From NCBI RefSeq assembly GCF_000526495.1, contig NZ_JAGE01000002.1, positions 434,001 to 498,000 of the forward strand: DNA of 64,000 nt. Reading direction: 5' to 3'. The DNA is from Ruminiclostridium josui JCM 17888. Lineage in GTDB: Bacteria > Bacillota > Clostridia > Acetivibrionales > DSM-1351. The notes beneath the pieces were generated by a model. It was not told where the DNA came from. It ran no database searches and was given only the letters and a program-made list of their open reading frames with translations. The translations under genes and the position numbers were made by a program. This document shows positions 11,413 through 30,931 of the stretch, piece by piece. How positions within the stretch are numbered: the stretch's first letter is position 1; every line of letters begins with the position of its first letter.

Positions 11413-11424
11413 GGATTGAGGTAT

Positions 11425-11471
11425 AAAAACAGCTATCCATGTATTAAAAAAATACATGGATAGCTGTTTTT
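11425..11471 (+). terminator. strong intrinsic terminator after the SurA-N-like gene
   Basis: A perfect 21-base-pair stem (11425-11445 with 11451-11471), a 5-base A loop and a closing T tract. The DNA from here to about 11740 is very AT-rich with no gene; the only promoter-like element is TTGACA at 11706-11711, with no convincing -10 box. Confidence 0.93.
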
Positions 11472-11745
11472 ATATATTAAATTTTTCTGTCTAGAATTCA
11501 ATCCCCAATTCTTGATGCTCTTAATAAATAGATTATCATATATGAATTAAAATTAATACAAGAAATAATATCATAGTACAATTGCGTATAATACTGCATA
11601 TAATAGTAATACGCGGTTTTATTAAATTTACTTTTAACTTAATTTCAATTTTATATATTATACACATAATATAATATTCGTCTTTAACTGTAATTCCAAA
11701 CAAATTTGACATTTTTACTTGTATCGGGAAGGTAAGGTGTTCACT

Positions 11746-12474
11746 TTGGGAATTAGCATTGTTATTCCGTCTAAAGGAAGAGTTAATCTGCTTGGTGAGT
11801 TACTGGAAAGCGTATTTATTGCACGACAAAATTATTCCGGAAAAAGTGAAGTAATTGTTGTTGATGACAGTAATGAAAAAGACTCATTAGAAATAAGAAA
11901 ATTATGTGAAAAATACGATTGTAAAATGATGTATTTCTCTCCTTCGGTTGCCGGAAAACGCAACTATGGAGGAAGACATGCCGAGCACGAGGTTATTTTA
12001 TACTTGGATTCTGATTGTCTTGCAACACCCAATCTGATAAATGAACATTTAAAACTTTATGAAGATAAAAGTGTTGGTGCTGTTTTGGGCCTTCTGGAAT
12101 TTACCGGTGAAGATACATGGTTTTGGAAGGCAGCAGGCAATTCCCAATTTGTTACTAGTTTTTATCTTGCCAAACATGCCAAAAATGTTTCTTGGGGACC
12201 TACTGCAAATTTCTCTGTTCGAAAAGACGTTTTTATTAAAACCCAGGGCTTTGATGAAGATTTTCCAAATAAGCCGGGGGGTGAAGATGTTGATTTTGGA
12301 CTAAGGATAAACAAATTAGGCTACAAAATTGCATGTACATCACATGGTTTAGTTTACCACAGTAAAAAAACATGGATTCCTGTAAAGGATATGTTTAAGC
12401 GTGTATGGTATTATGGTTCATCCGATTATTACCTAATGAAAAAGCACCCGGACTTTAATGAATGTACTGCCTAG
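11746..12474 (+). CDS. family 2 glycosyltransferase, catalytic part (MftF-like, split)
   Basis: About 242 residues of a GT-A glycosyltransferase: ISIVIPSKGR at the N-terminus, VIVVDDSN, the DxD metal motif in LDSDCLA, and the acceptor-side GGEDVDFGLRI. The C-terminal WYYGSSDYYLMKKHP pattern matches mycofactocin-type glycosyltransferases, where it leads into membrane helices. Here the frame ends at 12474, and the helices continue in the next frame from 12458. The start is uncertain: TTG 11746 (AAGGTG 6 bases upstream) or GTG 11737. It opens the RiPP-like gene set with UDP-xylose genes downstream. Confidence 0.82.
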   Translation: MGISIVIPSKGRVNLLGELLESVFIARQNYSGKSEVIVVDDSNEKDSLEIRKLCEKYDCKMMYFSPSVAGKRNYGGRHAEHEVILYLDSDCLATPNLINEHLKLYEDKSVGAVLGLLEFTGEDTWFWKAAGNSQFVTSFYLAKHAKNVSWGPTANFSVRKDVFIKTQGFDEDFPNKPGGEDVDFGLRINKLGYKIACTSHGLVYHSKKTWIPVKDMFKRVWYYGSSDYYLMKKHPDFNECTA

Positions 12475-12844: not shown

Positions 12845-12989
12845 ATTTTTATGGACTCATCATATTAAGCTACATTCCTAATGATGAAATTTTCCGGATT
12901 AATTTTAACATATATAGTTTGTTAACAAGCAAATAATACTGTATTTCTGCTTTATATAAAAAGTCAAAGAAAGGAAAGTGAAAATATAA

Positions 12990-13931
12990 ATGTCTATCAG
13001 TAAAACAGTGTTGGTTACAGGCGGTGCAGGGTTTATAGGCAGTAATCTTTGCAGACGGTTATTAAAAGAAAACTGCAAAGTTATTTGCCTGGATAACTTT
13101 TATACGGGAAGCAAAAGAAATGTAGAGGACTTGCTTCAAAATCAGGATTTTGAGCTTGTGGAACACGATGTTACAGTTCCGTTTAATATTAGTGCGGATG
13201 AAATATACCACCTTGCGGCACCTGCTTCGCCAATGCATTATCAAAAGGATCCCATCTATACAATAAAAACTATTGTTATTGGAACCTTGAATGCTTTGGA
13301 ATGTGCAAGAATTAACAATTCAAAGATTCTAAACACTTCAACAAGTGAGATTTATGGGGAGCCGTTGGTGCACCCCCAAACTGAAACTTACAGAGGTAAT
13401 GTTAACATAAATGGGATCAGAGCTTGTTATGATGAAGGCAAAAGATGTAGTGAGACTTTATGCTCAGACTATCGCAGACATCATAAAGTGGACACAAAAA
13501 TTGTCAGGATATTCAATACCTACGGTCCATACATGAATAAAAATGATGGAAGAGTGGTATGTGAATTTATAAATTGTATACTAAAAAACCAGCCTATCGA
13601 ATTATTTGGCGGGGGGGTTCAAACACGTTCCTTCTGCTATATTGATGATCTTGTTGAAGGGCTTATAAGGATGATGAATAGTGACAGCTCCGGACCCATA
13701 AATTTAGGAGGGACTGATGAAATAACCATTGCCGAATTAGCGAAAATTGTATCGCAAGTTATGAATAAAGAGCCGGTAATTGAATATAAAGATATGCCAT
13801 CAGATGACCCCACAAGAAGAAAGCCCGATATATCAAAAGCTGCCAAGGAATTGGCATGGAAGCCATGTGTTGACATTAGGACAGGAATTTATAAGACAGC
13901 TAAGTATTTCGAATCTATTTATGCTGAATAG
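12990..13931 (+). CDS. uxs: UDP-glucuronate decarboxylase (UDP-xylose synthase)
   Basis: An extended SDR of 313 residues that converts UDP-glucuronate to UDP-xylose in the cytosol. It has the NAD motif TGGAGFIGSN, the UXS signature HLAAPASPMHYQKDPI, a catalytic Ser/Thr in NTSTSEIYG, the Y-x3-K motif in ACYDEGKR, and ARIFNTYGP-like VRIFNTYGPYM. These separate it from UDP-galactose 4-epimerases. UDP-glucose dehydrogenase follows 14 bases later, so the pair supplies UDP-xylose. The likely users are the glycosyltransferases at 11746 and 22893. Confidence 0.9.
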   Translation: MSISKTVLVTGGAGFIGSNLCRRLLKENCKVICLDNFYTGSKRNVEDLLQNQDFELVEHDVTVPFNISADEIYHLAAPASPMHYQKDPIYTIKTIVIGTLNALECARINNSKILNTSTSEIYGEPLVHPQTETYRGNVNINGIRACYDEGKRCSETLCSDYRRHHKVDTKIVRIFNTYGPYMNKNDGRVVCEFINCILKNQPIELFGGGVQTRSFCYIDDLVEGLIRMMNSDSSGPINLGGTDEITIAELAKIVSQVMNKEPVIEYKDMPSDDPTRRKPDISKAAKELAWKPCVDIRTGIYKTAKYFESIYAE

Positions 13932-13945
13932 AGAGGTGAATATAT

Positions 13946-15265
13946 ATGAAAATAGCTGTTATAGGTATAGGCTATGTAGGATTGGTAACATCCGGATGTT
14001 TTGCGGAATCAGGGTTTAATGTTGTCAGCATGGATATTAATGAAGAAAAAATTAATATGCTTAAAGATGGACAAGTACCTTTTTATGAACCGGGCTTAAG
14101 TGAAATAGTTAAGCGAAATTATATTAATGGCAGACTTGAATTTACGACAGATTGTAAATATGCTGTGGAAAACTCAACGATAATTTTTATAGCAGTAGAT
14201 ACCCCGTCAAATAAAGAAGGTAATGCTGATATAAGTCAGGTTCTATCAGTCGCTAATTCCATAGGGGAGTACATTAACGACTATAAGATTATCGTCACAA
14301 AAAGTACGGTTCCTGTAGGTACAGGTAATAAAATCAAAGAAATACTTAGAGAAGTACTAAGTAAAAGAGGTGAAAACTATAATTTTGATGTAGTTTCAAA
14401 TCCGGAATTTCTGAGAGAAGGAAGTAGTGTACATGATTTTATGAATCCGGAAAGAGTTATAGTAGGTGCAGATAATATTGATGAAAACGATAATATAAAA
14501 AAGATTTTCAAAGAACTATACAATAAAAATAATTGTTCGTTTGTTTTTACTAATATAGAAACATCAGAAATAATTAAATATGCTTGTAATTCATTCCTAG
14601 CTGTGAAGGTTGCTTTTATTAACGAAATTGCAAATCTAAGCGAGGCTATCGGAGTAAATGTTAAGGATGTTGCAAAAGGGATGGGGCTAGATAGCCGCAT
14701 TGGAGGTAAATATTTAAATGCCGGCCCCGGATATGGCGGAAACTGTCTTCCTAAAGACACAAAAGCATTAGTACATATAGGTAATGAATATGGAGTAGAC
14801 ATGTCTATTATTAAAACTGTAATCAAATCCAACAATCTTCAAAAAAATCGTATTGCAAAAAAAATTGAAATGGTTTTAGACGGTGTATGTGGAAAAACTA
14901 TAGCTTTGCTGGGGCTTTCCTTTAAAGCGGATACCGATGATTTGCGGGAGTCGGTTGCATTAGTCATTATTAATAAATTAATTAATAAAGGCGCATTTGT
15001 AAAAGTTTTTGATCCTGTTGCAATTAATTCAGCGAAAAAATGTCTTATAAAACAAGAAAATTTATATTTTGCAAATGATGAATATGATGCAATAGCTGAT
15101 GCGGATGCAATAGTTATTGCAACAGAATGGAAACAGTTCAGCGAAATTGATTTTATAGCGGCAAAGAAGCAATTGAAAAGAAGTATAATTTTTGATCTTA
15201 AAAATTTGCTGGATAAAACTAAGTTATTGAATATTGGATACGAATACCACGGAATTGGTATTTAG
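13946..15265 (+). CDS. ugd: UDP-glucose 6-dehydrogenase
   Basis: A 439-residue NAD-dependent dehydrogenase that makes UDP-glucuronate from UDP-glucose. It has the N-terminal Rossmann motif GIGYVGLVT, the substrate helix with KYACNSFLAVKVAFINE, the catalytic cysteine in GPGYGGNCLPKD, and the C-terminal Rossmann segment LGLSFKADTDDLRES. Length is normal for the family. GAGAGGTGA precedes the ATG. Its product is the substrate of the UDP-glucuronate decarboxylase just upstream. Glucuronate could also be used as such; the adjacent decarboxylase favours xylose. Confidence 0.94.
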   Translation: MKIAVIGIGYVGLVTSGCFAESGFNVVSMDINEEKINMLKDGQVPFYEPGLSEIVKRNYINGRLEFTTDCKYAVENSTIIFIAVDTPSNKEGNADISQVLSVANSIGEYINDYKIIVTKSTVPVGTGNKIKEILREVLSKRGENYNFDVVSNPEFLREGSSVHDFMNPERVIVGADNIDENDNIKKIFKELYNKNNCSFVFTNIETSEIIKYACNSFLAVKVAFINEIANLSEAIGVNVKDVAKGMGLDSRIGGKYLNAGPGYGGNCLPKDTKALVHIGNEYGVDMSIIKTVIKSNNLQKNRIAKKIEMVLDGVCGKTIALLGLSFKADTDDLRESVALVIINKLINKGAFVKVFDPVAINSAKKCLIKQENLYFANDEYDAIADADAIVIATEWKQFSEIDFIAAKKQLKRSIIFDLKNLLDKTKLLNIGYEYHGIGI

Positions 15266-15335
15266 AAATCATAATAGATTGAAATGCTATAGCAGTGAGT
15301 ATATGCGGAATTAAAACATTAAGGGGGTAAAAAAA

Positions 15336-15680
15336 ATGAGTAGTTCTTCGAAAATTAAAGAAAAGGATTTATATCCAGTATGGAATCCCGAGTTTGTGGT
15401 AACTGAAGATAAAAATACCAAGGGTAATATGTTGTGTGTCCCCATTCAGAATGAAAGATTGCTAAATTTCCAACATTTTAAGATTTTAAGTGCTTTTGAT
15501 ATGAAGTTTGACCTGGACAGAATTGATTCTTTTGGTATACATAAATATTGTAATGGCAGCTACACGGTAGAGAAAATTATTCAAATGGTGGTGTCTGAAA
15601 ATTCTGACGCAACGGAAATGTCTGTAAGAGCAATAATTGATAAAATGGCACGAATCGGAATTATTAGCTTAATAGAGTAA
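15336..15680 (+). CDS. PqqD-like RiPP recognition protein
   Basis: A 114-residue protein with the PqqD pattern: N-terminal strands with YPVWNPEFVV, then a winged helix in which a hydrophobic segment (FGIHKYCNGSYTVEKIIQMV) resembles the conserved DG..t..eI region and is followed by a C-terminal helix. PqqD proteins (RREs) bind the leader of a RiPP precursor and present it to a radical SAM maturase. It lies 35 bases before such a maturase and 2.4 kb before a candidate precursor. AAGGGGG precedes ATG 15336. The fold assignment rests on pattern and context. Confidence 0.65.
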   Translation: MSSSSKIKEKDLYPVWNPEFVVTEDKNTKGNMLCVPIQNERLLNFQHFKILSAFDMKFDLDRIDSFGIHKYCNGSYTVEKIIQMVVSENSDATEMSVRAIIDKMARIGIISLIE

Positions 15681-15715
15681 GTTAAATAATATTTTATATA
15701 ACGGGAGGTAGAAAA

Positions 15716-18025
15716 ATGGAACTAACATTAGTTTCTCCAAACAGTGAGTGTGAAAAATGTACTACCATGTATGAGCAATTGGTTGTCCTAAAGAATAAGT
15801 ATCCTGATATAAATTTGAAAAAAATATCATATGAAGCAAACAAAGAAGGGTTTTTGAACTATACTACTCCAATTCTATTGATGGATGATTGTGTAGTGTC
15901 TTCAGGAAGAGTTGTACCAATGGAATTTCTGGAGGAATACATAGAAAACCAGTTAAGCTTTAAATCTTCTTCCTGCAGTTGCGGTTGCAGCTGTTCTTCC
16001 CAAAAAGAAGATAATTATAGTAATGAATTCTCTTTGTCAGGAACAAGATGGCATGTATTTCAAAACGGAGATGAATATATCGCTTTGGATGTAAATACAT
16101 CCAGATGTATGGAAATGGACGAGTATGCTCTTAAAGTGTTGCAGGGAGAAGCAGCGCGTGAAGGCAAAATGGAGGCGGCAGTTAAAGAGTACAATACTCT
16201 CAAATATATCGATTATTACAGCCACGAAAATTTTACCCGTGAAATACCGGAGAATGAACTTAATGTATGTTCAATAAACCTTACAATACCTCATGCTTGT
16301 AATCTGGACTGTGAATATTGCTATAGCAAGGATTATTACAAGCCTGTCTCTAGAGAACAGGTGTTCAAGATTTTGGACAGATTGATAGAACGGTTTGTTG
16401 CTCCGTCAAAAAACAAAAGATTTATGTTTAACTTTTCGCTGTTTGGCGAAGTACTTTTGAATATTCCCCTTTTAACAGAAATGAAGCAATACCTTGAGGA
16501 CTGGGGAAACAAAAACGGTAAAAGGCTCTCAAGCAGGTTTAATGCCACAAATGCTACTCTCTTAACCCCTGAAAAAGCCCGTGAAATGTGGGAACTGTCA
16601 GATATGGGTGAAATAAATATAAGCATTGATGGTCCCGCACATATCCATGATAAAGTAAGGCATTTTCCCAACGGAAAAGGAACTTACACAATTATTGAGG
16701 AGAATGTAAAGGACTGCGTAAACAAATGGCCTACTGTAGCATCTGCAGTACTAAACGGTCAAAATCCAAATGTAACTGAGATTTTTCTCCATCTTTATAA
16801 CCTGGGATTCAGACGTATTCGTATCAAACCTATAAGAGCAAGCTATGATAATCCTTATGCAATAACAAAGGACAATGTGAATATTGTAAAAGAGGAATAT
16901 ACGAAATTTATTAAGTTCCTTTTGGAACAGGATGATGCGCAACTAGTAGATTATATATCTTGTATTGATGGAGACGAGTTGCTGGGCAGGTTTTTCCAGA
17001 CATTGTTAAAAGGAATTGTTTCTAAATACAGGTGTCCTGCTTTAAGAGACACAATTGTTGTTAATAGTGATGGTGATATTTACTCATGTCAGAGCGTTAT
17101 AGGTTTTGAAGAATTTAAGGTAGGAAACATCTTTGACGATGACACTGCCTGGAACGAAAAGAGAAATTCACTTTTAACCAAAATGCATGTGAATCTAAAG
17201 GAAGAGTGTAAAAAATGCTGGGCAATTAATTTGTGCGGAGGAGGATGTGCACATGCCGGATGGCTCAATAATGGTTCACTTGAAACCCCAGATCTTGTTA
17301 AATGTGATTTGGTAAGGCATGTTATAGAGCAAGCAATGATTTTACTTTCTGGAATAAGAAGCAGACCAGAGGCTTCAAAAATGCTTGAAACTGCATTTAG
17401 AAGGCGTTCTCCCCAATCTGTATTATTGTCAGCATCAAGTAAACATACAAATGTTTCACCGCTGTCCGATTCAACTGCTTGGGAAAATGCAAAGATTATA
17501 AATCTAAATAGAAAAGAGCAATTAAGGGGAGCTGTAAGCGGAAAACAGATTTTTACTGGGAAGGTACATACTTTGTGGGATGAACAATATTTTTATCTGA
17601 AAGCTGATATTCTTGGTTTGAATTCTGATAAAAAAATGTTTAATCAAGAAAATCTGGTTCGGTTCTGTCTTATGGAGAATACTGATGGGAATATATGGGA
17701 ATATGGAATAGGTTTAAACATAGGACAACCTGTTCTCACTCGTTTCTATATGAAGGATATATCAAAGGATTTCTTTGGAAATGTAGAAGATGCGATTGTA
17801 TCTATAAGTGAAACTGAGGAAGGAATGTCATATCAGGTTGCTATTCCATGGAAGGAATTTGGAGTGAAACCGGAAGATGGTAAGGTTTTAAGATTTAATG
17901 TGGTGCTTTACGAAAGAGAACATCCTTATCCATATGTGGCTGAGTGGTGGTGGGAATGGTCACCAGGAATGGTTGTGGAAATGAATCCAAACCTGTTAGG
18001 AAAGCTTGTATTAAAAAGTAAATAA
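15716..18025 (+). CDS. radical SAM/SPASM peptide maturase with thioredoxin-like head and CBM9-like tail
   Basis: A 769-residue multidomain enzyme. Residues 1-80 form a thioredoxin/glutaredoxin-like domain with C12-x2-C15. Residues 83-96 are a Cys-rich linker (C87, C89, C91, C93). Residues ~105-180 look like an RRE/PqqD-type leader-binding wing. The radical SAM domain has C195-x3-C199-x2-C202. SPASM cysteines lie at ~440, 458, 498, 501, 507 and 511. Residues ~580-765 resemble a family 9 carbohydrate-binding module (AWENAK, LWDEQYFYLKADI, WEYGIGLNI, WWWEWSPGM). Radical SAM/SPASM enzymes install thioether or C-C links in peptides; a sugar-binding tail is not usual. The 53-residue precursor gene follows by 29 bases. 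Confidence 0.85.
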   Translation: MELTLVSPNSECEKCTTMYEQLVVLKNKYPDINLKKISYEANKEGFLNYTTPILLMDDCVVSSGRVVPMEFLEEYIENQLSFKSSSCSCGCSCSSQKEDNYSNEFSLSGTRWHVFQNGDEYIALDVNTSRCMEMDEYALKVLQGEAAREGKMEAAVKEYNTLKYIDYYSHENFTREIPENELNVCSINLTIPHACNLDCEYCYSKDYYKPVSREQVFKILDRLIERFVAPSKNKRFMFNFSLFGEVLLNIPLLTEMKQYLEDWGNKNGKRLSSRFNATNATLLTPEKAREMWELSDMGEINISIDGPAHIHDKVRHFPNGKGTYTIIEENVKDCVNKWPTVASAVLNGQNPNVTEIFLHLYNLGFRRIRIKPIRASYDNPYAITKDNVNIVKEEYTKFIKFLLEQDDAQLVDYISCIDGDELLGRFFQTLLKGIVSKYRCPALRDTIVVNSDGDIYSCQSVIGFEEFKVGNIFDDDTAWNEKRNSLLTKMHVNLKEECKKCWAINLCGGGCAHAGWLNNGSLETPDLVKCDLVRHVIEQAMILLSGIRSRPEASKMLETAFRRRSPQSVLLSASSKHTNVSPLSDSTAWENAKIINLNRKEQLRGAVSGKQIFTGKVHTLWDEQYFYLKADILGLNSDKKMFNQENLVRFCLMENTDGNIWEYGIGLNIGQPVLTRFYMKDISKDFFGNVEDAIVSISETEEGMSYQVAIPWKEFGVKPEDGKVLRFNVVLYEREHPYPYVAEWWWEWSPGMVVEMNPNLLGKLVLKSK

Positions 18026-18054
18026 ATGATTTTAGGTAAAGGGAGGTGAAAAGT

Positions 18055-18216
18055 ATGGAAAATTTGAGAGAAGCAAAATTTCTGGAAACAACCATAATAA
18101 ATGATGAGCTGCTTGATATTACTGAGCTGACAACTTCAATTATTGGAGAAGGATGCAATTGTAAAGAGGGCGGCGTAGTAGCTTGTACCTGCTGCGGTTC
18201 AAGTAGACAATTATAA
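18055..18216 (+). CDS. candidate Cys-rich RiPP precursor peptide (53 aa)
   Basis: A small ORF behind an excellent GGGAGGTGA site, between two radical SAM maturase genes. The first ~33 residues form an acidic, leader-like segment (MENLREAKFLETT... LDITELTTSII), followed by GEG as a possible leader-core boundary. The short core has five cysteines: C34, C36, C44, C46 and C47, ending in GSSRQL. Position, size and composition fit a substrate of the flanking SPASM enzymes (thioether-linked peptide, sactipeptide or ranthipeptide type). It shares no long sequence with precursors I recognise, so the class is open. Confidence 0.8.
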   Translation: MENLREAKFLETTIINDELLDITELTTSIIGEGCNCKEGGVVACTCCGSSRQL

Positions 18217-18232
18217 AAGAAGGATGTTTTTT

Positions 18233-19627
18233 GTGACTGAAAATATTAGCGGGCAAATACCACTATATAAACAAAGCTATTATAATTTTGAGCTAAAGCT
18301 GGATAATGAAAAGTATATGCTATATAACACCAAAACCGGTGCTGTTTCTCTTTTAGACAACATAGAAAGAGACACTATGAGCTCTGCTTTATCAGGTAAA
18401 AATGTATGCAAAGACAGATTATTAATAGGCAACTTGTTAAGTCAAGGCTTCATAGTAGAAAGAAATAGAAATGAGTTGGATGATATCAAGTCAATTACTC
18501 AGAGCTTTAGAAAAGCAAAGAACCTTGTACGGTTAATTGTATTACCTGCTGAGGCATGTAATTTTACATGCCCCTATTGCTTTATTTACAGGCAGAGAAA
18601 TATTTTTATGAGCGAATGGGTATATGATTCAATCCTTAAATATATTGAAAGTAAGGTATCAAAAAGTACAGAGCAAACTTTAGTACAGCTTTCATGGTAC
18701 GGAGGAGAACCTCTATTAGCTTCCCAAAAGATAATTGAGTTTATGGGAAGGTTGAACCAGTTAAAAGAAAATTACAATTTTAAATTAAATAGTTCCATAT
18801 ATACAAATGGATATCTTCTTACAAGTGACTTGTTCCAACAACTCCTAGAATGTGGTATAGAAACTTTTCAGGTTACGGTTGACGGAGGTAAAAGTAGTCA
18901 TGATCGTTTGCGGAGATTAAATAGTGGAGAGTCTACATTTGATACTATTTATACAAACTTAAAAAATATCAAAAGATTTACCGGTAAAGAGAAAAGTTTT
19001 AAATTTTACATTAGAGCGAACTTTTTAAAGAGCAGCATTGAATCAATGAATGAATTTATAGAGGATTTTGTTAAAGATTTTGAGACAGATAAAAGATTTA
19101 ATATCTTTTTCAGACCGGTATATCACTTTAAAACCTCCAGAAATGATGTGGAAAAGGTTGCTGATGATATATTAGATCCTGATGAAGGTGTAAATTCACA
19201 GTTAGTTCTCGCAAACAAGGTTTTCAGTCAATTACCTGAAAAATCAATGGATTCTATGGTCAATATATTTAAGCCTTTACCATCACCAATACACACTTGG
19301 TGTACCGGAAGCAGCGGAAATACTTATATTATCGGTGCTGACGGGGCTGTGTTTATGTGTGATACCATGATGGTTGAAAAAGAAAAGAGTGTAGGAGAAA
19401 TTACCTTGGATGGACGTATTTCATTAAACGAAAATGCTCAACCTTGGATAAGACCTGTCTTTGAAGATTTAGAAAATAATCGAAAAGAATGCTTAAAGTG
19501 TAAATTGCTCCCGGTTTGTCTGGGAGGCTGCAGATTATCAGCGGCTTCAGGACACAAAGCATGCTTCTGGAGTGAGAAAGTTATACTTGATTCCATGAGA
19601 AAATATGCTGAAATGATTTCAAAATGA
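18233..19627 (+). CDS. radical SAM/SPASM Cys-rich peptide maturase
   Basis: About 464 residues from GTG 18233 (AGAAGGA 9 bases upstream; ATG 18224 abuts that site). An N-terminal ~95-residue RRE-like domain (FELKLDNEKYMLYN) precedes the radical SAM motif C109-x3-C113-x2-C116 in EACNFTCPYCF. The fold contains the LSWYGGEPLL and VTVDGG segments of SPASM peptide maturases. C-terminal SPASM cysteines (WCTGSSG, FMCDTM, CLKCKLLPVCLGGC and a late ACFW) hold two auxiliary clusters. It resembles clostridial Cys-rich peptide maturases of the CcpM/Clo7bot kind. It sits 16 bases after the precursor and is its most likely modifying enzyme. Confidence 0.87.
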   Translation: MTENISGQIPLYKQSYYNFELKLDNEKYMLYNTKTGAVSLLDNIERDTMSSALSGKNVCKDRLLIGNLLSQGFIVERNRNELDDIKSITQSFRKAKNLVRLIVLPAEACNFTCPYCFIYRQRNIFMSEWVYDSILKYIESKVSKSTEQTLVQLSWYGGEPLLASQKIIEFMGRLNQLKENYNFKLNSSIYTNGYLLTSDLFQQLLECGIETFQVTVDGGKSSHDRLRRLNSGESTFDTIYTNLKNIKRFTGKEKSFKFYIRANFLKSSIESMNEFIEDFVKDFETDKRFNIFFRPVYHFKTSRNDVEKVADDILDPDEGVNSQLVLANKVFSQLPEKSMDSMVNIFKPLPSPIHTWCTGSSGNTYIIGADGAVFMCDTMMVEKEKSVGEITLDGRISLNENAQPWIRPVFEDLENNRKECLKCKLLPVCLGGCRLSAASGHKACFWSEKVILDSMRKYAEMISK

Positions 19628-19679
19628 AATTATATTGTATCCGGAAGAATGTGTACTTGAAAAAGAGGAAAGCAGAGGT

Positions 19680-20822
19680 GTGAATATTTTGAAAGAAGCA
19701 AAAGGGTATTTTGACTATGCGGCCAGTGCTCCTGCATTTGAGGAGAGCATTGAAGTTTTTAAAAACATATCTATGTTTACTTTTGGAAATCCTTCATCCA
19801 ACCATAGCCCAGGGATGAAAGCAAGGGAAATCTTAAACAAAAGCAAAGAAAAGTTTTTAAATGTACTTGGTATTTCAGATGCAACTATTGTTGTTACTTC
19901 AGGAGGCTCAGAGGCTAATAATCTGATTTTGAATTCCATGATTCTGAAATATCCTGATAAGAAAATCTTAGTTGCACAGGATTCCCACGAATCATGTTAT
20001 TTTATCAAAAAAAAGTATCCCGATAGAGTGGATATTCTGAATATTGACAGTCATGGTCAGATTAATTTAAAGGATTTGGAGAACACTCTTTCTCAGGAAT
20101 ATTCTCTTCTATGTATACTTCACGGAAACAACGAAACAGGAGTTGTTCAGAGGGAATTAAGAAAAATAATTGAAATCTGTAGAAATAAAAATGTTTTGAT
20201 ACATATTGATGGAGTTCAGACTGTAGGACATATTCCTATAGGAATAGATGATTTTAAGGGAATATTTTATACTTTTTCTTCCCATAAATTTGGCTCTCCA
20301 AGAGGAAGCGGAGGGATTATTACAAGTTCACCTGAGCTATTAAACAGCTTCATTTTTGGCGGACCACAAGAGAAAAATATACGTGCTGGAACGGAAAATA
20401 TCGCAGCTTTTGCTGCGGCTGCTTCTGCTCTTGAAATATCTATTAATAAATTTGAACAAATGGAAGAACGATTAAAATTATATTGCAATTATGTAAAAGG
20501 TAAGCTTACGGAGCATTTTCCCCAAATAATATTCAATTCAAGCGATAATGGATTACCAGGACTTTTATCACTATCAGTCCCTGGTATAAAGGGTAGTATT
20601 ACGGTCACGGAGATGGCTATGCACGGATATGCAATATCATCGGGATCGGCCTGTCATTCCAGTATGGAAATTCCGCCGCGCATTATAATGGCTATGGGCA
20701 GAAGTATGAAGGAAGCATTTGGTTCATTGAGAATATCTATGGGGTATTACACCGAAGAAGATGATGTTTATTCTATGACAGATGCTTTAATAAAGGCAAT
20801 TAGTCGACAATTAAAGGAGTGA
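19680..20822 (+). CDS. NifS/IscS-like cysteine desulfurase in the RiPP locus
   Basis: A class V PLP enzyme of ~380 residues. It shows the N-terminal FDYAASAP start, HGNNETGVVQ, the PLP lysine in SSHKFGSPRGSGG, the GTENIAAFAAA helix and the active-site cysteine in SSGSACHS. Desulfurases take sulfur from free cysteine as a persulfide, for Fe-S clusters or thio-modification. The start is GTG 19680 or TTG 19689, both after AGAGG-type sites. It is translationally linked to the next gene by a 1-2 base overlap. Here it could rebuild the auxiliary clusters of the maturases or act on the peptide; the sequence does not decide. Confidence 0.87.
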   Translation: MNILKEAKGYFDYAASAPAFEESIEVFKNISMFTFGNPSSNHSPGMKAREILNKSKEKFLNVLGISDATIVVTSGGSEANNLILNSMILKYPDKKILVAQDSHESCYFIKKKYPDRVDILNIDSHGQINLKDLENTLSQEYSLLCILHGNNETGVVQRELRKIIEICRNKNVLIHIDGVQTVGHIPIGIDDFKGIFYTFSSHKFGSPRGSGGIITSSPELLNSFIFGGPQEKNIRAGTENIAAFAAAASALEISINKFEQMEERLKLYCNYVKGKLTEHFPQIIFNSSDNGLPGLLSLSVPGIKGSITVTEMAMHGYAISSGSACHSSMEIPPRIIMAMGRSMKEAFGSLRISMGYYTEEDDVYSMTDALIKAISRQLKE

Positions 20823-20827
20823 TAAAA

Positions 20828-21859
20828 ATGTCAATTTTTATTAATGAAAAGGAATTTAATATTAGCAAAGTTCAGCAAGGTAAATTTGAGCAATGGGGAG
20901 TAACTTTTCAACTTGATTGTATTTATGAAGTAATTAATGAATTTGAATCAAATAATCTTCGTGGAATTAATTTATCTGTAACAAAAAAGGGAGAATATTT
21001 TTTAGAAGGCTGGAAGGCTCCTGATGAAAAATGTTTTGACAGCGGAAGAACAGTACACTACAAGGGCAATTGCTTGGCTGTTCTGGATGATGATAATCAT
21101 TTTATATTCAAGAATATGCGGATTTGTGAAAAGACCAGCAGTGTATATATGTTGCCGGTTTATCAAAAGGAACTCGAAGTTTCAGAACCCGATCCTGAAC
21201 TTTATGCTAGATTAACTACCGATCCCGTGTTGTTTGATTGTGATACTTTTGAAAGGGATGCAGGTTTAGTAGCCGAAAACATAAAATATAGCCCCGAGAC
21301 AGCAGAAGTAAGTTTGCTTTATACAGGTCCTTTTCGTTGTATTTTTCTTCCAAATGGAACTATTGTAAGAAGGGGAATTCCAGTTTCTGTATCAAAAAAA
21401 TCTGCAGAAATTATAGGGGAGAATAACTATTTATTATTAGAGTTTACAGCTCCACTTGCTAAAAACTATTTGGATTTATATAAAAAGTATGGGGCGATTT
21501 TTTTACTGGGAAACAGTATGGGCGAAAGTATTAATTATTACCCTCAGATAGAGAAAATCAAGTCAATATCCGATTCATTAAAATTACGCTTTAAAAATAT
21601 GATTGATAACAATAATGATTATTTTATTTTACAGGGAAGTGATCCTGCAGATAAAGATTCTTGTTGTCCAAATCCTTTAGTATCAGAATTGAAGCAACTG
21701 GCTAATGCTGGTCTTGTATCCTCATATGGCTCACCGACTGCCGGCAGCTGTCCTATGACAATATATGCCTTTAATGGCGAATTAAGTACTGTGGATGACG
21801 GCTTTCCGACCTTTAATCAAAATGGTCTGCTAAGACTTGCCATGAGAAAATATCTCTAA
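20828..21859 (+). CDS. uncharacterised protein of the RiPP locus (343 aa)
   Basis: I do not recognise this family. It is soluble, without signal peptide or membrane helix, and rich in beta-strand patterns in the first ~200 residues. Later residues contain an SCCPNPLVSELKQLANAG segment and SPTAGSCPMTIYAFNG near the C-terminus. Several cysteines are scattered (the DSCC pair near residue 279, one near 306). AAAGGAGTG precedes ATG 20828, overlapping the end of the desulfurase gene, so both are made together. Position suggests an accessory maturation or scaffold role; no function is claimed. Confidence 0.55.
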   Translation: MSIFINEKEFNISKVQQGKFEQWGVTFQLDCIYEVINEFESNNLRGINLSVTKKGEYFLEGWKAPDEKCFDSGRTVHYKGNCLAVLDDDNHFIFKNMRICEKTSSVYMLPVYQKELEVSEPDPELYARLTTDPVLFDCDTFERDAGLVAENIKYSPETAEVSLLYTGPFRCIFLPNGTIVRRGIPVSVSKKSAEIIGENNYLLLEFTAPLAKNYLDLYKKYGAIFLLGNSMGESINYYPQIEKIKSISDSLKLRFKNMIDNNNDYFILQGSDPADKDSCCPNPLVSELKQLANAGLVSSYGSPTAGSCPMTIYAFNGELSTVDDGFPTFNQNGLLRLAMRKYL

Positions 21860-21925
21860 AAATACGAAATTTAATTCATTTACACTGCCTAATTGATTTG
21901 GCAGAAGCGAGGAGTTGATATAAAT

Positions 21926-22789
21926 ATGCGTAAAGAATTTATAGCAGAAATAATTGGCACGTTTATTCTTGTTTTTTTCGGCTGTGGCTCCGTTGCAGTT
22001 GATGTAATAAGCGGTGCACATCTTGGTTTGTTTCAGGTGGCAATTGTTTGGGGAATAGCAGTTAATCTGGCCATTTACATGGTGGGCTCCATAAGTGGTG
22101 CGCATCTTAATCCTGCAATAACAATTGCTATGGCTATTTTCAGACCTAAAAAGTTTCCCGCAAAAAAGATATTGCCATATATTTTAGCTCAATTAGTAGG
22201 CGCTGTTATTGCCGGGCTAGTATTGTACGGACTATTTAGTAAAACCCTTATCAGTTTTGAAGCTTCAAATAATATTGTAAGAGGGCAGCCTGGAAGTGAA
22301 TTATCGGCTATGATGTTTGGAGAGTACTTCCCGAATCCTGCTATTTATGGAACCACAAAAGAAGTATTTGCACAGGTACCATTGATTATTGGTACGGTGG
22401 CAGAGTTTATGGGTACTATGTTTCTTGCACTGGGAGTATTTGCATTAACAGATGAGAAGAAGTTTGACAGTTCCAAAAAAGGATTCAGAGCTTTTACATA
22501 TTGCATAGGTCTTGTACTTTCTATATCCATAATCATGTTCGCTCCTTTTTCCCAAGCCGGGCTTAATCCTGCCAGAGATTTTGGTCCAAGGTTAGTTTCA
22601 TACTTTGCAGGATGGAAAGATATTGCCATTCCGGGCCCAAATGGAGGATTTTTGCTAGTGTATATTTTAGCGCCAATCGCTGGAGCAATTTTAGGTGGCT
22701 GTATATATAAATTTATTGCTCAAATTTCACCAGCAAAGGATGAATCCGAATATAGTGGCAATAGAGAATTTGCTCGTAAAGCCAGTTGA
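21926..22789 (+). CDS. MIP-family channel (glycerol facilitator type)
   Basis: A 287-residue membrane channel with six hydrophobic segments and the two half-helix motifs HLNPAIT and GLNPARDFGPR. The Asp after the second NPAR is typical of glycerol facilitators rather than strict water channels. An extended loop between helices 3 and 5 (FGEYFPNPAIYG) also fits GlpF-like proteins. ATG 21926 has a GAGGAG site. It passes small uncharged solutes; in arsenic loci such channels can carry arsenite, which is worth noting beside the ArsR region 3 kb downstream. A terminator follows. Confidence 0.9.
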   Translation: MRKEFIAEIIGTFILVFFGCGSVAVDVISGAHLGLFQVAIVWGIAVNLAIYMVGSISGAHLNPAITIAMAIFRPKKFPAKKILPYILAQLVGAVIAGLVLYGLFSKTLISFEASNNIVRGQPGSELSAMMFGEYFPNPAIYGTTKEVFAQVPLIIGTVAEFMGTMFLALGVFALTDEKKFDSSKKGFRAFTYCIGLVLSISIIMFAPFSQAGLNPARDFGPRLVSYFAGWKDIAIPGPNGGFLLVYILAPIAGAILGGCIYKFIAQISPAKDESEYSGNREFARKAS

Positions 22790-22835
22790 TTTATATTAAT
22801 GAATTTTAAACGTAATATTTTTAGAAATAGAACAG

Positions 22836-22869
22836 AGGAGGGGATTGGAATTTTATCCCCTCCTACTTT
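22836..22869 (+). terminator. intrinsic terminator after the MIP channel
   Basis: Perfect 10-base arms (22836-22845 with 22855-22864) around a 9-base loop, followed by a CTTTT run. It ends the RiPP-locus transcript and separates it from the next glycosyltransferase, which has its own GGAGGGA site. Confidence 0.75.
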
Positions 22870-22892
22870 TAATAAGGAGGGACCATATTTGT

Positions 22893-25247
22893 ATGAAATT
22901 TGATTTTTCTGTCGTAATACCATTTTACAACAAGAGATTTGAGCTTAATCTTGTGTTAAAAGGACTATCCTGTCAGGACTATGATAAAGGCAAATTTGAA
23001 GTGGTTATAGTAGATGATGGTTCAGAAAATTCCATTAATGATTTGCTAGAGAAATATGCAAATTATTTGAACATAAAGTATATATATCTTGAGCACACCG
23101 GGAACCGTGGTCGGAATAGAAACAAAGGTGCTAAAGAAAGTAATGGCAAAAAAATAATTTTTCTTGATGGTGATATAATACCGGAGAGCAATTTAATATC
23201 CGCTTTTTATAAAGCAACAAAAGATAACCCAAGGTTGGTTTCAGTGGGATTTCGAAGACTTCTTAGAGAAGTTGACATCAGTCTCTTGACAGAAGAAGCT
23301 GTAGAAAATAATTGTGAATCCTTATTAAAACTTCCTTATAATTCAGACAGCCGCCATTTAAATGTGGATTATGAGAAGAGCACGGGTAACAAAATAGTGG
23401 GCGGATGGCAATATCTTTATACTAATTGTGTATGTATACCTAAAAATGAGTTTGAAGCTATAGGCGGATTTGATGAAGTATTTTCTGAAAATTGGGGTGC
23501 AGAGGATGTGGAACTTGGGTTTAGACTTTTTCAAAATGGGTGTATTATTGAAATGAACGAAGCAGCAAACGGTATTCATATTTTTCACACTGAAGATGGC
23601 TTCAAAAGATTTGAATCAATGATGAAAAATTATGATATTTTTCTTCGTATGCACAAGCATTGGACTGTTGAGCTATTTACCAAAGAGTATGAAACCCAGG
23701 CTATTGAAATTATTGGAATGCAAAAGTTAATAAAGAAGAGAAGCCATATTGTGTCAAAAATCCAAAATGTTGATACAGTTATAAGCCATCTGCCTGAAAA
23801 CGTTTTGCTGTGTGGAATCGAGATAAGTGAATTAATTAATTGCCATAAAATTATTAATGTATTTAATCCTGAACCTTTGATAAAGTCGGAAAAAGTACTT
23901 AATTGGTTAGGAATAAAAACTGATTATAAAGACAACCATTTTGAATTGGCACTGCTATCAATAAAATACAAAGAGATTAATTACGGACTTTTTCACATCC
24001 TGTATCATGAAATAAGCAGAATAGCCAAAAAAGTAATTTTGGTAGATGACAATTCAAATATTCTTTCCGTTTTGAATTCTACCGAGGTAGAACCCTTTGA
24101 CTTCCCAAAAGAAATTATTTTTTATGTATCAGCATTTGAGAACTACTCCATTTACAGACACTATATAAACCTTGCAATTGCTCTGCATAAGAAAGGAATT
24201 AAAACCGGTTATAATGTATATTTTGACCCAACCCATGAAATAAATCCAAACCGTGGTGTTATGCATACCAGAAATAAAGAAAAAATTGATATAATTAATA
24301 AGCTCTTAAGGCATGAAATGAGCATAAATTCCAGTCAAACGATATCAATTGTTGATAAAATTCTTTTAAAGGTTGCTTCCAAAAATATGGGGGCAAGGAT
24401 ATTATGGGATGAAATAAATTATCACGGTCATGAAAAAGAGTTCGGTTCTGATATTACCTCTTATGTTGATGCAGTTTGCCCAAGAAGAGAAAGGGATGTG
24501 GATTTTTATAATGAGAATAAATTAATAGGTTACATACCTGTGGGCATTGATAAGCAAAAAATAATTGAAATAAAGGGAATGGATAAGGCCAAGAAAGATA
24601 AATTTACATTTCTTTGGTCAGATCAATATACCGACAAATATTCAAATCTTGAAATTATTTTAGAAGCATTTACTGAGTTGTTTAAGAATAAGGACGATGT
24701 AGATTTAAAGATTGTTCATACAGGAAAAAATCTTGTATATAGTTCATATAATAAATTCTTTTATCAAGAGTCCTTTGACCGAATTTATGCTGATTTATAT
24801 AATAAATATCAGCACGAAAAGAATATTAAGTTCCTGCAAGCGGAATTATCTGAAGAAGAGTATTCAAAAGAGATTTTCCAGTGTGATTGCTTTATTAATC
24901 TTAACTCCCTGATGAAAATAAACAGTTGGGTATTAGAGTCAATAGCTTTTGGTAAAAAACCAATGATATTGGATAATGGCAATTATGACGGTTATTTTTC
25001 GGATAAGGAAAGCTTCAGGGTCAAGACAAAACTTGTTCCTGTTTTAGTTGGAAAGCCATCAAAGGATGATGGAAATTTGAGAAATACATATCATATTGAT
25101 GTTCCTATAAAGGAATCCATTATTGATGTCTTTCAAGAAATATATAACAATAAAGATTCCTTGAGTATTGACAGTTCTGTAGTAAATGATTTTATCGACA
25201 GGCATGACTGGATGACTATAGCAGATATGTTTGTTGAAATAATATAG
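22893..25247 (+). CDS. two-domain glycosyltransferase (GT2 plus GT4-like)
   Basis: A 784-residue fusion. Residues 1-280 form a GT2 GT-A domain: FSVVIPFYNK, VVIVDDGSE, the DGD metal motif in FLDGDIIPES, and GGFDEVFSENWGAEDVELG with the acidic ED pair. Residues ~420-784 look like a GT-B fold of the GT4 type, with PVGID near residue 545, VHTGKN, and ALESIAFGKKPM-like VLESIAFGKKP. The middle region (~300-400) is not assigned. Two different glycosyl transfers by one polypeptide are implied. ATG 22893 follows GGAGGGACC. With the UDP-xylose genes it suggests that a glycan is built in this locus. Confidence 0.82.
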   Translation: MKFDFSVVIPFYNKRFELNLVLKGLSCQDYDKGKFEVVIVDDGSENSINDLLEKYANYLNIKYIYLEHTGNRGRNRNKGAKESNGKKIIFLDGDIIPESNLISAFYKATKDNPRLVSVGFRRLLREVDISLLTEEAVENNCESLLKLPYNSDSRHLNVDYEKSTGNKIVGGWQYLYTNCVCIPKNEFEAIGGFDEVFSENWGAEDVELGFRLFQNGCIIEMNEAANGIHIFHTEDGFKRFESMMKNYDIFLRMHKHWTVELFTKEYETQAIEIIGMQKLIKKRSHIVSKIQNVDTVISHLPENVLLCGIEISELINCHKIINVFNPEPLIKSEKVLNWLGIKTDYKDNHFELALLSIKYKEINYGLFHILYHEISRIAKKVILVDDNSNILSVLNSTEVEPFDFPKEIIFYVSAFENYSIYRHYINLAIALHKKGIKTGYNVYFDPTHEINPNRGVMHTRNKEKIDIINKLLRHEMSINSSQTISIVDKILLKVASKNMGARILWDEINYHGHEKEFGSDITSYVDAVCPRRERDVDFYNENKLIGYIPVGIDKQKIIEIKGMDKAKKDKFTFLWSDQYTDKYSNLEIILEAFTELFKNKDDVDLKIVHTGKNLVYSSYNKFFYQESFDRIYADLYNKYQHEKNIKFLQAELSEEEYSKEIFQCDCFINLNSLMKINSWVLESIAFGKKPMILDNGNYDGYFSDKESFRVKTKLVPVLVGKPSKDDGNLRNTYHIDVPIKESIIDVFQEIYNNKDSLSIDSSVVNDFIDRHDWMTIADMFVEII

Positions 25248-25263
25248 CTATAAACATTCAAAA

Positions 25264-25302
25264 ATTACTGCCAATTTCGAATCATTCAAAATTGGCAGTA
25301 AT
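25264..25302. terminator. bidirectional terminator between the glycosyltransferase and the Cys-rich peptide
   Basis: Perfect 14-base arms (25264-25277 and 25289-25302) with an 11-base loop. T or A runs flank both sides, so it can serve the + strand glycosyltransferase and the - strand peptide gene, which converge here. Confidence 0.8.
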
Positions 25303-25316
25303 CCTCTTTTGTATGA

Positions 25317-25568
25317 TTACTTGCAGGTGCAGTCATTATCAACTTTTGGGGAACAGCCGCAACTTTCTGCCTGCTCATTACTGCCACAACCACAATCCTG
25401 TGAAACAAGTGTGTCTTCAATTGCAGAAGATACATCAACTTCACATGAAGAGCAACAGCTGTTAGCAACAGTTGTACTACCGCATCCACACTGTGTTTCA
25501 GTTTTTTTACCAAAAAGTATTTCGCTCAGCGTTTTACGCTTTTGTGCATCTTTTTTAGTATCTGGCAT
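25317..25568 (-). CDS. 83-residue, 11-cysteine peptide (metallothionein-like or RiPP precursor)
   Basis: A basic helical head (residues 1-24, KRKTLSEILFGKK) is followed by a Cys-rich body with C27, C29, C38, C39, C42, C59, C61, C70, C72, C80 and C82, mostly as CGCG or CxC units, ending in DCTCK. AAGGAGG lies 10 bases before the ATG. An ATCGTA-type dyad 24 bases upstream, shared with the divergent arsR, implies ArsR control. The same head-plus-11-Cys layout forms the N-terminus of the radical SAM protein at 29468-30826. It could be a metal-binding peptide or a substrate of that enzyme. Confidence 0.75.
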   Translation of the reverse strand: MPDTKKDAQKRKTLSEILFGKKTETQCGCGSTTVANSCCSSCEVDVSSAIEDTLVSQDCGCGSNEQAESCGCSPKVDNDCTCK

Positions 25569-25591: not shown

Positions 25592-25609
25592 TATCGTAAA
25601 TATACGATA
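25592..25609. promoter_or_regulatory. ArsR-type operator upstream of the Cys-rich peptide
   Basis: Perfect dyad TATCGTA-N4-TACGATA, 24 bases before the peptide start on the - strand. The same core recurs at 25705, 25726, 26094, 30916 and 31025. Confidence 0.75.
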
Positions 25610-25704: not shown

Positions 25705-25747
25705 TATCGTATTTATACGATATAATACATCGTGTAAATACGATGTA
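25705..25747. promoter_or_regulatory. two ArsR-type operators upstream of arsR
   Basis: Two adjacent dyads: TATCGTA-N4-TACGATA (25705-25722) and TACATCGT-N6-ACGATGTA (25726-25747). They lie 23 bases before the arsR start and probably overlap its promoter, which suggests autorepression relieved by metal. Confidence 0.78.
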
Positions 25748-25769: not shown

Positions 25770-26072
25770 ATGGATGTTATTGCTATCTGCAATGCTTTAG
25801 GTAATAAAACCCGTTTTCAGATAATTAAATCTTTAAAGAACAAGTCGATTTCTACATGCTGTGATAAGATTGAATATTTTGAAAATGGTATTAGTGTTGG
25901 AGATGTAGTTAAACTTACCGGACTTGCACAGTCAACAGTCTCTCAGCATTTAGTAGTACTAGAGAAGGCTGGATTACTTTATAGGGAAAAAAGGGATCTT
26001 TGGACATGTTATTTCCTTAATACTGAAGTAATTAAAGAGTTTTTAGCAGAGTTGAATAGTGACCTAAAATAA
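25770..26072 (+). CDS. arsR: ArsR-family metal-responsive repressor
   Basis: A 100-residue winged helix-turn-helix repressor. The recognition helix region (LTGLAQSTVSQHLVVLEKAGL) is typical of ArsR/SmtB proteins. Cysteines at residues 6, 28 and 29 (the STCCDK pair) lie N-terminal to it and could bind a thiophilic metal or metalloid. It is flanked upstream by two ATCGTA dyads and downstream by a third at 26094, then by the permease. GAGGTG is 13 bases before ATG 25770, a little far. It likely controls the permease, the divergent Cys-rich peptide and the distant radical SAM gene. Confidence 0.88.
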   Translation: MDVIAICNALGNKTRFQIIKSLKNKSISTCCDKIEYFENGISVGDVVKLTGLAQSTVSQHLVVLEKAGLLYREKRDLWTCYFLNTEVIKEFLAELNSDLK

Positions 26073-26109: not shown

Positions 26110-26135
26110 ATAGATTTATGATGGAGGTAAAAGAT

Positions 26136-29047: not shown

Positions 29048-29386
29048 ATGCTGAATTATGAAGAAAATTCAAAAATAATTAAAGCCCTTTCTGATCCAGG
29101 CAGACTTAAAATAATTGATATTTTGTCATGTGGTGAGAAATGTGCTTGTAATATATTAGAGCAATTTGATTTTACACAGCCAACATTATCTCATCATATG
29201 AAGGTCTTAACCGATTGTGGTCTGGTAAAAAGCAGAAAAGAAGGATTATGGAACTATTATTCACTGGATACTACCAACTGTAATAAGCTTATTCTGTTTC
29301 TTATGAGCCTTGTAACTGATACATGTGATTGTATATGTAAAGATAATTCTATGATAGATAACGGATGTGACTGCACATGTAAATAA
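29048..29386 (+). CDS. arsR: ArsR-family repressor with arsenite-type motif and Cys-rich tail
   Basis: A 112-residue ArsR protein. GEKCACNILEQF at residues ~30-41 matches the arsenite-sensing CxC(D/N)L motif at the start of the recognition region; QPTLSHHMKVL is the DNA-binding helix. An extra C-terminal tail of ~22 residues holds CDCICK and CDCTCK, i.e. six cysteines. The last block is nearly the same as the DCTCK end of the 83-residue Cys peptide. The tail may be a second metal site or an exchange site with the peptide. Targets are unknown; an AT-rich dyad (near 28982-28999) could be its own operator. Confidence 0.87.
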   Translation: MLNYEENSKIIKALSDPGRLKIIDILSCGEKCACNILEQFDFTQPTLSHHMKVLTDCGLVKSRKEGLWNYYSLDTTNCNKLILFLMSLVTDTCDCICKDNSMIDNGCDCTCK

Positions 29387-30915: not shown

Positions 30916-30931
30916 ATCGTATATTTACGAT
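30916..30931. promoter_or_regulatory. ArsR-type operator upstream of the radical SAM gene
   Basis: ATCGTA-N4-TACGAT perfect dyad, 90 bases upstream of the - strand radical SAM start. Confidence 0.7.

Follow-up and report, generated by a model that had tools for sequence, protein, structure and literature searches.

The locus analysed here raises the question of what is modified by a radical SAM/SPASM enzyme that carries a thioredoxin-like head and, as a tail, a family 9 carbohydrate-binding module (CBM9). The gene, rSAM1, lies in a window of 64,000 nucleotides of Ruminiclostridium josui JCM 17888 (contig NZ_JAGE01000002.1, positions 434,001 to 498,000), which is the whole stretch analysed and to which the coordinates below refer. 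rSAM1 groups with the radical SAM/SPASM peptide maturases, is followed by a small cysteine-rich open reading frame (ORF), and belongs to a compact gene run containing UDP-xylose genes and a gene for a protein with an ArsM-type module. The reading towards which the evidence leans, by a modest amount, is that rSAM1 is a maturase of a ribosomally synthesised and post-translationally modified peptide (RiPP), with the 53-amino-acid (aa) product of that ORF as its substrate, a second radical SAM enzyme (rSAM2) as its partner, docking on a glycan, and a thiol or metalloid function of the cluster, probably concerning arsenic.

Domain order and rarity of rSAM1

The rSAM1 ORF is intact: it starts with ATG, preceded by GGGAGGT, and encodes 769 aa with no internal stops. 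An assembly chimera is unlikely, because the gene is a single open frame within a contig of 880,602 bases. The order claimed in the original prediction (thioredoxin-like CxxC, CxCxCxC linker, leader-binding wing, radical SAM, SPASM and CBM9) is borne out by profile scans, motifs and alignment (Table 1). The core shows a radical SAM domain (PF04055, residues 192-352, E 7.5e-10, 39.7 bits, cut-off 29.5) and a SPASM domain (PF13186, residues 440-502, E 5.8e-6, 26.9 bits, cut-off 21.5), and it passes the general SPASM model TIGR04085 (67.1, cut-off 27). C195, C199 and C202 of the radical SAM motif and the SPASM cysteines C458, C498, C501, C507, C511 and C530 are invariant in 27 of 27 aligned rows, and C440 is conserved in at least 90% of them. 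Several NCBIfam peptide-maturase models begin matching at residue 112-113, where the wing shows strands (112-134) followed by helices (136-164) in the AlphaFold model. In this full-length model residues 191-560 are confident, with 10-residue blocks at a predicted local distance difference test (pLDDT) of 73-98; the head is weak (blocks at 36-67) and the tail is unresolved from residue 571 (blocks at 22-42). The best PDB matches of the core are 5wgg/5why (phmmer E 3.1e-28; Foldseek E 1.0e-26), entries titled for thioether bond formation in sactipeptide biosynthesis, the enzyme presumably being CteB. Assignment to four maturase families was tried and dropped: PapB (NF047865), which gives the best NCBIfam score (178.1 bits, cut-off 340), SCIFF (TIGR03974; 162.6, cut-off 425), nif11 (175 bits, below cut-off) and CcpM (below cut-off).

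The isolated residues 1-100 match Thioredoxin_3 (PF13192) over profile positions 4-75 of 76, with E 3.1e-5 and 24.3 bits for a Pfam cut-off of 24.8; within the whole-length protein the score is 18.2. The head is also below the cut-off of 62 of the MTH895/ArsE family TIGR00412 (18.2 bits, E 0.0024), and an ArsD metallochaperone (PF06953) was dropped as a candidate, since only Thioredoxin_3 is reported at E up to 10. The CBM9-like nature claimed for the tail is confirmed by both score and fold. The isolated 196-aa tail passes the CBM9_1 (PF06452) cut-off of 23.4 with 28.2 bits (E 2.1e-6, profile 7-183 of 185), the same domain in whole rSAM1 scores 22.7 bits, just under the cut-off, and a genome profile search summed within the rSAM1 frame gives 25.6. 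Since neither head nor tail was usable in the full-length model, a separate model of the tail was built from an alignment of 15 CBM9-type rows; another alignment (A2), combining CBM9 fragments with full maturases, matched those fragments to the radical SAM core and was set aside. The tail model is a beta sandwich of moderate confidence (mean pLDDT 62.8, predicted template modelling score 0.67), and its top three PDB matches are all CBM9, 7nwn (E 6.0e-8), 7nwo and 1i82, two of them with bound glucose or cellobiose; since the model's alignment was drawn from CBM9 relatives, the fold and the Pfam score are not independent lines of evidence. Matches four to six are chains of nitrite oxidoreductase and ethylbenzene dehydrogenase, presumably non-sugar-binders. 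The tail is divergent, with 16-26% identity to 14 aligned CBM9 modules.

Two overlapping sets of genomes were searched: 100 genomes (99 others) with rSAM1, and 398 genomes of the phylum (397 others) with a two-row profile of rSAM1 and a relative from Roseibium. Matches to the core are common (94 of the 100 genomes at E 0.001 and 214 of the 398 at E 1e-40, own genome included). Among the best matches, listed by E-value, head and tail together are covered only by the window's own gene, so that within these matches the search for this architecture across genomes, proposed as a check, showed the full fusion in no other genome. The tail alone gives weak matches in three of the 57 other genomes of the order, in other, unrelated frames. 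The original prediction would have been refuted by absence of the fusion from close relatives because of an assembly error: the absence is real among the relatives searched, and nothing points to the error. In the titles and abstract openings found by literature searches, no SPASM enzyme fused with a CBM9 or thioredoxin domain appeared, which does not prove that none has been published. Head and tail were thus not seen together elsewhere within the genomes and literature searched.

Three long frames were considered as fusions and rejected: that of genome G006 is a plain SCIFF maturase of 447 aa (710.5 bits, over the TIGR03974 cut-off of 425), the 698-aa frame of G084 crosses an undetermined residue and continues as unrelated sequence, with no CBM9 seen by eye, and that of G040 differs in its N-terminal domain and lacks a tail. 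A 539-aa frame of G030 matches the core. In a core tree of 29 rows, rSAM1 falls in a supported group of six with Roseibium, G040, G026 (two rows) and G009; its branch is long and its placement inside the group unsure. By eye, the congener G009 (L116, 2533-8262) encodes four radical SAM-like proteins almost in succession, one of them a distant relative of rSAM1, together with a small acyl-carrier-like protein; the region is another uncharacterised multi-maturase cluster. The Roseibium aggregatum protein is the best plasmid match of rSAM1 (L087; 31.6% identity, E 2e-44). Its region (7857-15141) contains this SPASM protein with an extension of more than 200 aa, a second radical SAM protein, a pyridoxal phosphate-dependent decarboxylase and nucleotide-sugar genes.

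Candidate precursor, gene run and arsenic-type neighbours

The original prediction read the neighbourhood from its UDP-xylose genes and glycosyltransferases, and overlooked the precursor and the arsenic-type genes. The 198-bp gap between rSAM1 and rSAM2 contains a 53-codon ORF, MENLREAKFLETTIINDELLDITELTTSIIGEGCNCKEGGVVACTCCGSSRQL, with a strong ribosome-binding site, GGGAGGTGA, five bases 5' of its ATG at 18055. Its product shows a leader and a cysteine-rich core (CNCKEGGVVACTCCG), and because this shape and the position between two maturases are the usual signature, the ORF is read as a RiPP precursor. No family model matches the peptide, which is the likely substrate of rSAM1. A cell-wall glycan, also suggested as the target, is unsupported, the adjoining precursor ORF offering the more economical substrate.

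The main genes from 11719 to 25247 are oriented one way with short gaps and would form one transcript. Their order is GT2 glycosyltransferase, UDP-glucuronate decarboxylase, UDP-glucose-dehydrogenase-like protein, 114-aa protein, rSAM1, precursor, rSAM2, desulfurase, the protein encoded at 20819 (hereafter the 20819 protein), aquaporin and 800-aa glycosyltransferase. The nucleotide sugar dehydrogenase and the decarboxylase constitute the UDP-xylose route, and since both share the run of rSAM1, the suggestion that the enzyme acts on, or is recruited to, a glycosylated peptide gains strength and stays a plausible reading. Neither glycosyltransferase reaches the MftF (TIGR03965) cut-off of 280, with 86 for 11719 and 65.6 for 22845. 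The 114-aa protein shows no significant family match, no PDB match and no homologue in the 57 other genomes of the order. The desulfurase has both its lysine and its cysteine motif (SSHK, SACHSS), and its gene overlaps that of the 20819 protein by 4 nt if the latter starts at GTG, or lies 5 nt from it if the next ATG is used. No peptidase or ABC exporter was seen in the run by eye. The hairpins at 11426 and 25260 are the two longest terminator-like stems in 11301-31300, a region with 15 terminator-like sites for 9.3 in shuffles.

Compared by sequence profile, the 20819 protein shares with ArsM-like arsenic methyltransferases their C-terminal module. A profile built on four C-termini of ArsM type, from proteins scoring 333.9, 350.9, 72.4 and 48.5 (a piece) against NF040538 (cut-off 500), matches it in two domains with E 1.7e-11, the best of 2000 shuffles reaching 0.33; the second domain is weak alone (7.0 bits). 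At E up to 1, the profile finds among 2829 ORFs of the fetched loci only ArsM-type proteins besides the 20819 protein, including the annotated arsM of an arsinothricin cluster (E 1.8e-5), a tally that is biased because the loci were partly collected with an ArsM query; the G043 and plasmid matches described next started from the 20819 protein itself. This protein passes no family cut-off and does not match the ArsM families NF040538 and NF038099 at E up to 10. A homologue was found in one of the 57 other genomes of the order, G043, as the C-terminal part of an ArsM-like protein (E 2.1e-5; 72.4 bits to NF040538), and in none of 390 other genomes of a class sample. The G043 gene lies in an ars operon with a major intrinsic protein (MIP) channel (166.3, cut-off 171.25), ArsR (87.8, cut-off 55), ArsD (90.8, cut-off 90) and ArsA (748.8, cut-off 650). 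The only plasmid match (E 0.04) is in an annotated arsinothricin cluster with arsQ, arsL, arsM and an aquaporin gene; in both loci, as near 20819, an aquaporin gene is close by. An arsinothricin-type chemistry was tried and dropped, no arsQ, arsM or arsL being identified among the island proteins scanned or read.

The island site is an arsenic locus in one congener, G005. Window 8442-11485 and 31217-32861 match this genome in the same order with 85-88% identity, and the interval between 11485 and 31217 measures about 19.7 kb here and about 4 kb in G005. The shared order is interrupted in G005 by some 10.9 kb of other genes, at window 10373-10452. The proteins encoded at the site in G005 score 436 bits as an ACR3 arsenite exporter (cut-off 283) and 48.8 as an ArsR-type regulator (cut-off 55); two more are GshA-like, with 391 for a cut-off of 393, and GshB-like, with 485 to the bifunctional GshAB model (cut-off 425). 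An arsenic role of the island is therefore supported, not proven. ACR3 is found in seven of 11 genomes of the genus, the source genome included.

The right-hand unit contains two ArsR-type regulators, a permease, an 83-aa cysteine-rich peptide and a third radical SAM enzyme, rSAM3. The second regulator (29048) shares 51% identity with an ArsR of genome G235 (87.8 bits), whose gene immediately precedes one of ArsM-like type (178.7 bits to PRK11873, cut-off 263); the first (25770) is not alignable in this comparison. A 16-bp palindrome, ATCGTATTTATACGAT, has 10 strand-wise matches at three or fewer mismatches, with 0.93 expected and 0 of 100 shuffles reaching 10. Because palindromes count on both strands, these are six distinct places (25593, 25706, 25729, 26094, 30916 and 34566). 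Promoter-like matches of 12 of 12 positions are found at 25698-25726 (+), with the palindrome at 25706 within the spacer, and at 31078-31050 (-), upstream of rSAM3, and one of 11 of 12 at 25638-25610 (-), before the 83-aa peptide gene; such sites are not enriched in 11301-31300 (89, for 90.4 in shuffles). The N-terminus of rSAM3 is more like the 83-aa peptide, and also more like the permease insert, than composition would explain (0 of 500 shuffles in either case), while the likeness of the peptide to the insert is less clear (2 of 500) and that to the tail of the second ArsR was reached by 3 of 500. The 83-aa peptide, which has no homologue in the 57 other genomes of the order, shows no such likeness to the 53-aa precursor (165 of 500 shuffles). 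rSAM3 and the 83-aa peptide are possibly a second, metal-regulated pair of maturase and peptide. Between the permease and the second ArsR (27294-28976) lies a gene for a glycoside hydrolase family 9 enzyme with a CelD_N domain, whose N-terminus is by eye unlike a usual signal peptide, odd for a cellulase.

Table 1. Coordinates of the features described, with residues, scores or basis of assignment
Feature	Position	Strand	Remarks
terminator-like hairpin, 20 pairs	11426..11470	+	closes the gene before the run
GT2 glycosyltransferase, EpsD/MftF-like	11719..12474	+	93.6 and 86 bits, cut-offs 370 and 280
UDP-glucuronate decarboxylase (UDP-xylose synthase)	12990..13931	+	E 2.8e-98 to PDB 2b69
nucleotide sugar dehydrogenase, UDP-glucose 6-dehydrogenase-like	13946..15265	+	TIGR03026 455.1, cut-off 189.8; TuaD 505.1, cut-off 700
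114-aa protein, discrete candidate PqqD/RiPP recognition element (RRE)-like	15336..15680	+	by eye only; directly upstream of rSAM1
rSAM1	15716..18025	+	thioredoxin-like / CxCxCxC / leader-binding wing / radical SAM / SPASM / CBM9 fusion
rSAM1 head, Thioredoxin_3-like	15716..15943	+	residues 1-76, C12xxC15
rSAM1 CxCxCxC linker	15974..15994	+	C87, C89, C91, C93
rSAM1 leader-binding (RRE-type) wing	16043..16255	+	residues ~110-180
rSAM1 radical SAM domain	16289..16771	+	CxxxCxxC = C195/C199/C202
rSAM1 SPASM domain	17033..17305	+	7 Cys: 440, 458, 498, 501, 507, 511, 530
rSAM1 CBM9 tail	17474..18016	+	residues 587-767
candidate RiPP precursor, 53 aa, core CNCKEGGVVACTCCG	18055..18216	+	between rSAM1 and rSAM2
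rSAM2, radical SAM/SPASM maturase, TIGR04463 / Clo7bot-maturase-like	18224..19627	+	192.9 and 179.5 bits, cut-offs 525 and 600
NifS-like cysteine desulfurase	19635..20822	+	TIGR03402 229.7 bits, cut-off 530.75; SSHK, SACHSS motifs
protein with ArsM-type C-terminal module	20819..21859	+	residues 64-119; weaker possible second copy 165-204
aquaporin / MIP channel	21893..22789	+	TIGR00861 180.2, cut-off 171.25
800-aa glycosyltransferase, GT2 N-terminal part	22845..25247	+	family scans
hairpin, 20 pairs	25260..25306	-	after the run; terminator-like for the convergent 83-aa peptide gene
83-aa Cys-rich CGCGS peptide	25317..25568	-	ORF list, motif scans
operator-like palindrome	25593..25608	.	before the 83-aa peptide gene
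two operator-like palindromes	25706..25744	.	before arsR-permease
ArsR/SmtB-family regulator	25770..26072	+	family scans
ArsP_1 / SO_0444-type permease with Cys-rich insert	26118..27272	+	family scans
second ArsR, GEKCACNIL motif and Cys tail	29048..29386	+	family scans
rSAM3, radical SAM/SPASM, Cys-rich N-terminus	29468..30826	-	family scans
operator-like palindrome	30916..30931	.	before rSAM3

Elsewhere in the window, the minus strand of 35850-47547 encodes, by eye, three ketosynthase-like proteins, a short-chain dehydrogenase/reductase, an alpha/beta hydrolase, a HemN-like radical SAM protein and an asparagine-synthetase-like protein, and looks like a natural product cluster of polyketide or fatty-acid type. 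Two flavodoxin-fold reductases lie just before it, at 32994-35791. An IS110-like transposase (48670-49962, minus strand) and, at the right end, two nitrogenase-like proteins (60563-63543) were also recognised by eye.

Proposed route and rival explanations

In the RiPP-maturase reading, the leader of the precursor would bind the wing of rSAM1, and the radical SAM/SPASM clusters of this enzyme, together with rSAM2, would crosslink the cysteine-rich core, most likely through thioether bonds. The CxxC head and the CxCxCxC linker may keep the core thiols reduced or pass on a soft metal or metalloid. The product or a partner would be glycosylated with UDP-xylose-derived sugars by the transferases of the run, the cytoplasmic CBM9 tail would dock rSAM1 on that glycan, and the cluster would serve the handling of thiols or metalloids, probably of arsenic. 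A bolder version is decidedly unlikely: that the island product is a radical-SAM-crosslinked, xylosylated cysteine-rich ribosomal peptide, which binds or covalently carries arsenic and replaces the glutathione/ACR3 role of the congener, with rSAM1 bearing an arsenite/thiol head and a glycan-reading tail. The titles and abstract openings found by literature searches describe neither an arsenic-linked RiPP nor this one.

Several observations weigh against the RiPP-maturase reading. Among the 25 best of 54 matching models, rSAM1 stays below the cut-off of every peptide-maturase family, so that its chemistry cannot be deduced from family membership. No convincing homologue of the precursor was found, with weak matches in six of the 397 other genomes of the phylum (E 0.009 to 0.08), the best of which, in G646, covers 18 aa (E 0.009) and shows by eye no radical SAM gene among the surrounding ORFs. 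As to the glycan, the position of the stacking tryptophan of the Thermotoga CBM9 module, presumably W71, as read by eye holds Asn in one alignment of the tail and lies beside Phe in another, and the aromatic sugar-contact residues are not settled by alignment. The Roseibium protein was dropped as a parallel for the SPASM-CBM9 fusion, its long C-terminal extension having no CBM9 match (hhalign E 0.57; blastp E 0.12), and no ars genes were seen around it. As to arsenic, none of the island proteins that were scanned or read could be identified as ArsM, ArsL, ArsD or ACR3, the one ACR3 of the source genome lies outside the island, and another congener, G007, has neither the island nor the ACR3 cassette at this place and continues at window 50.5 kb. 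The palindrome was not found before 11719, and for this reason the left run is not placed under the arsR regulon. The hairpin at 25260-25306 was rejected as a terminator of the run, the scan supporting the minus strand only.

Radical SAM/SPASM enzymes beside cysteine-rich peptides are commonly of ranthi- or sactipeptide type, rSAM2 is nearest to the TIGR04463 and Clo7bot maturases, and two radical SAM enzymes are reportedly used to make thuricin CD. These points, with the lack of a palindrome before the run, would fit an ordinary antibiotic cluster in which rSAM1 and rSAM2 make a thioether toxin or signal and the ars-type genes are unrelated passengers of the island. This is nevertheless unlikely, as the ArsM-module gene directly follows the desulfurase gene within the run and precedes the aquaporin gene, G005 has arsenite genes at the same site, and neither a peptidase nor an ABC exporter was seen by eye in the run. 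Maturation of a protein or cofactor, as by anaerobic sulfatase maturases (anSME) or the quinohemoprotein maturase, is highly improbable: no sulfatase or quinohemoprotein target was seen in the island by eye and a small cysteine-rich ORF directly adjoins rSAM1, although the corresponding models score 100 and 161 bits, below cut-off, and anSME structures are fold neighbours of the core.

A further alternative concerns one step only and is compatible with rSAM1 as a RiPP maturase. The CBM9 tail may serve structure or protein-protein contacts without any part in sugar binding, the glycan genes serving an unrelated surface polysaccharide; this is a serious possibility, though somewhat less likely than not. 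The top three fold matches of the tail are CBM9, two with glucose or cellobiose, and the run contains UDP-xylose genes and two glycosyltransferases, which argues for a sugar role. Against a sugar role, radical SAM enzymes are expected to be cytoplasmic whereas secretion is usual for CBM9 modules, the relative from Roseibium carries another kind of extension in the same place, and fold matches four to six are presumably non-sugar-binders.

If the RiPP-maturase reading is true, a thiol-redox head and a glycan-binding tail would make rSAM1 a RiPP enzyme tethered to a glycosylated substrate, managing the core cysteines in one chain. As precursor, two maturases and UDP-xylose genes lie in one compact run, the proposal is directly testable by co-expression. 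If the arsenic link is also true, a metalloid would join the metals handled by ribosomal peptides, and the ArsM C-terminal module would have a second context.

Comparison with known systems

rSAM1 shares with the SCIFF maturases (TIGR03974; 5wgg/5why) the wing, the radical SAM fold and the seven-cysteine SPASM domain, and differs from them by the added thioredoxin-like head and CBM9 tail, by a neighbour peptide matching no family model, and by a score of 162.6 compared with the 710.5 of the true member in G006 (cut-off 425). The ranthipeptide maturase PapB (NF047865) provides its best NCBIfam score, yet no PapA-like precursor was identified here. The mycofactocin cluster contains a precursor, an RRE protein, a radical SAM/SPASM enzyme and the GT2 glycosyltransferase MftF. 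The logic of RRE, radical SAM enzyme, precursor and glycosyltransferase is common to both, the 11719 glycosyltransferase scoring 86 bits to MftF, whereas the locus described here shows two maturases, a desulfurase and ars-type genes. With the arsinothricin arsQML cluster and the ars operons containing ArsM, the island has in common the ArsM-type C-terminal module, the aquaporin and ArsR-type regulators; in contrast to them, no arsL, arsQ or ArsM methyltransferase was identified here, and the radical SAM enzymes are SPASM peptide-maturase-like. The tail shares sequence family and fold with the CBM9 modules of 1i82, 7nwn and 7nwo, and here is divergent and fused to a radical SAM enzyme. The bufferins, which reportedly bind copper and are made by MNIO enzymes rather than radical SAM enzymes, offer a precedent for a metal-protective RiPP.

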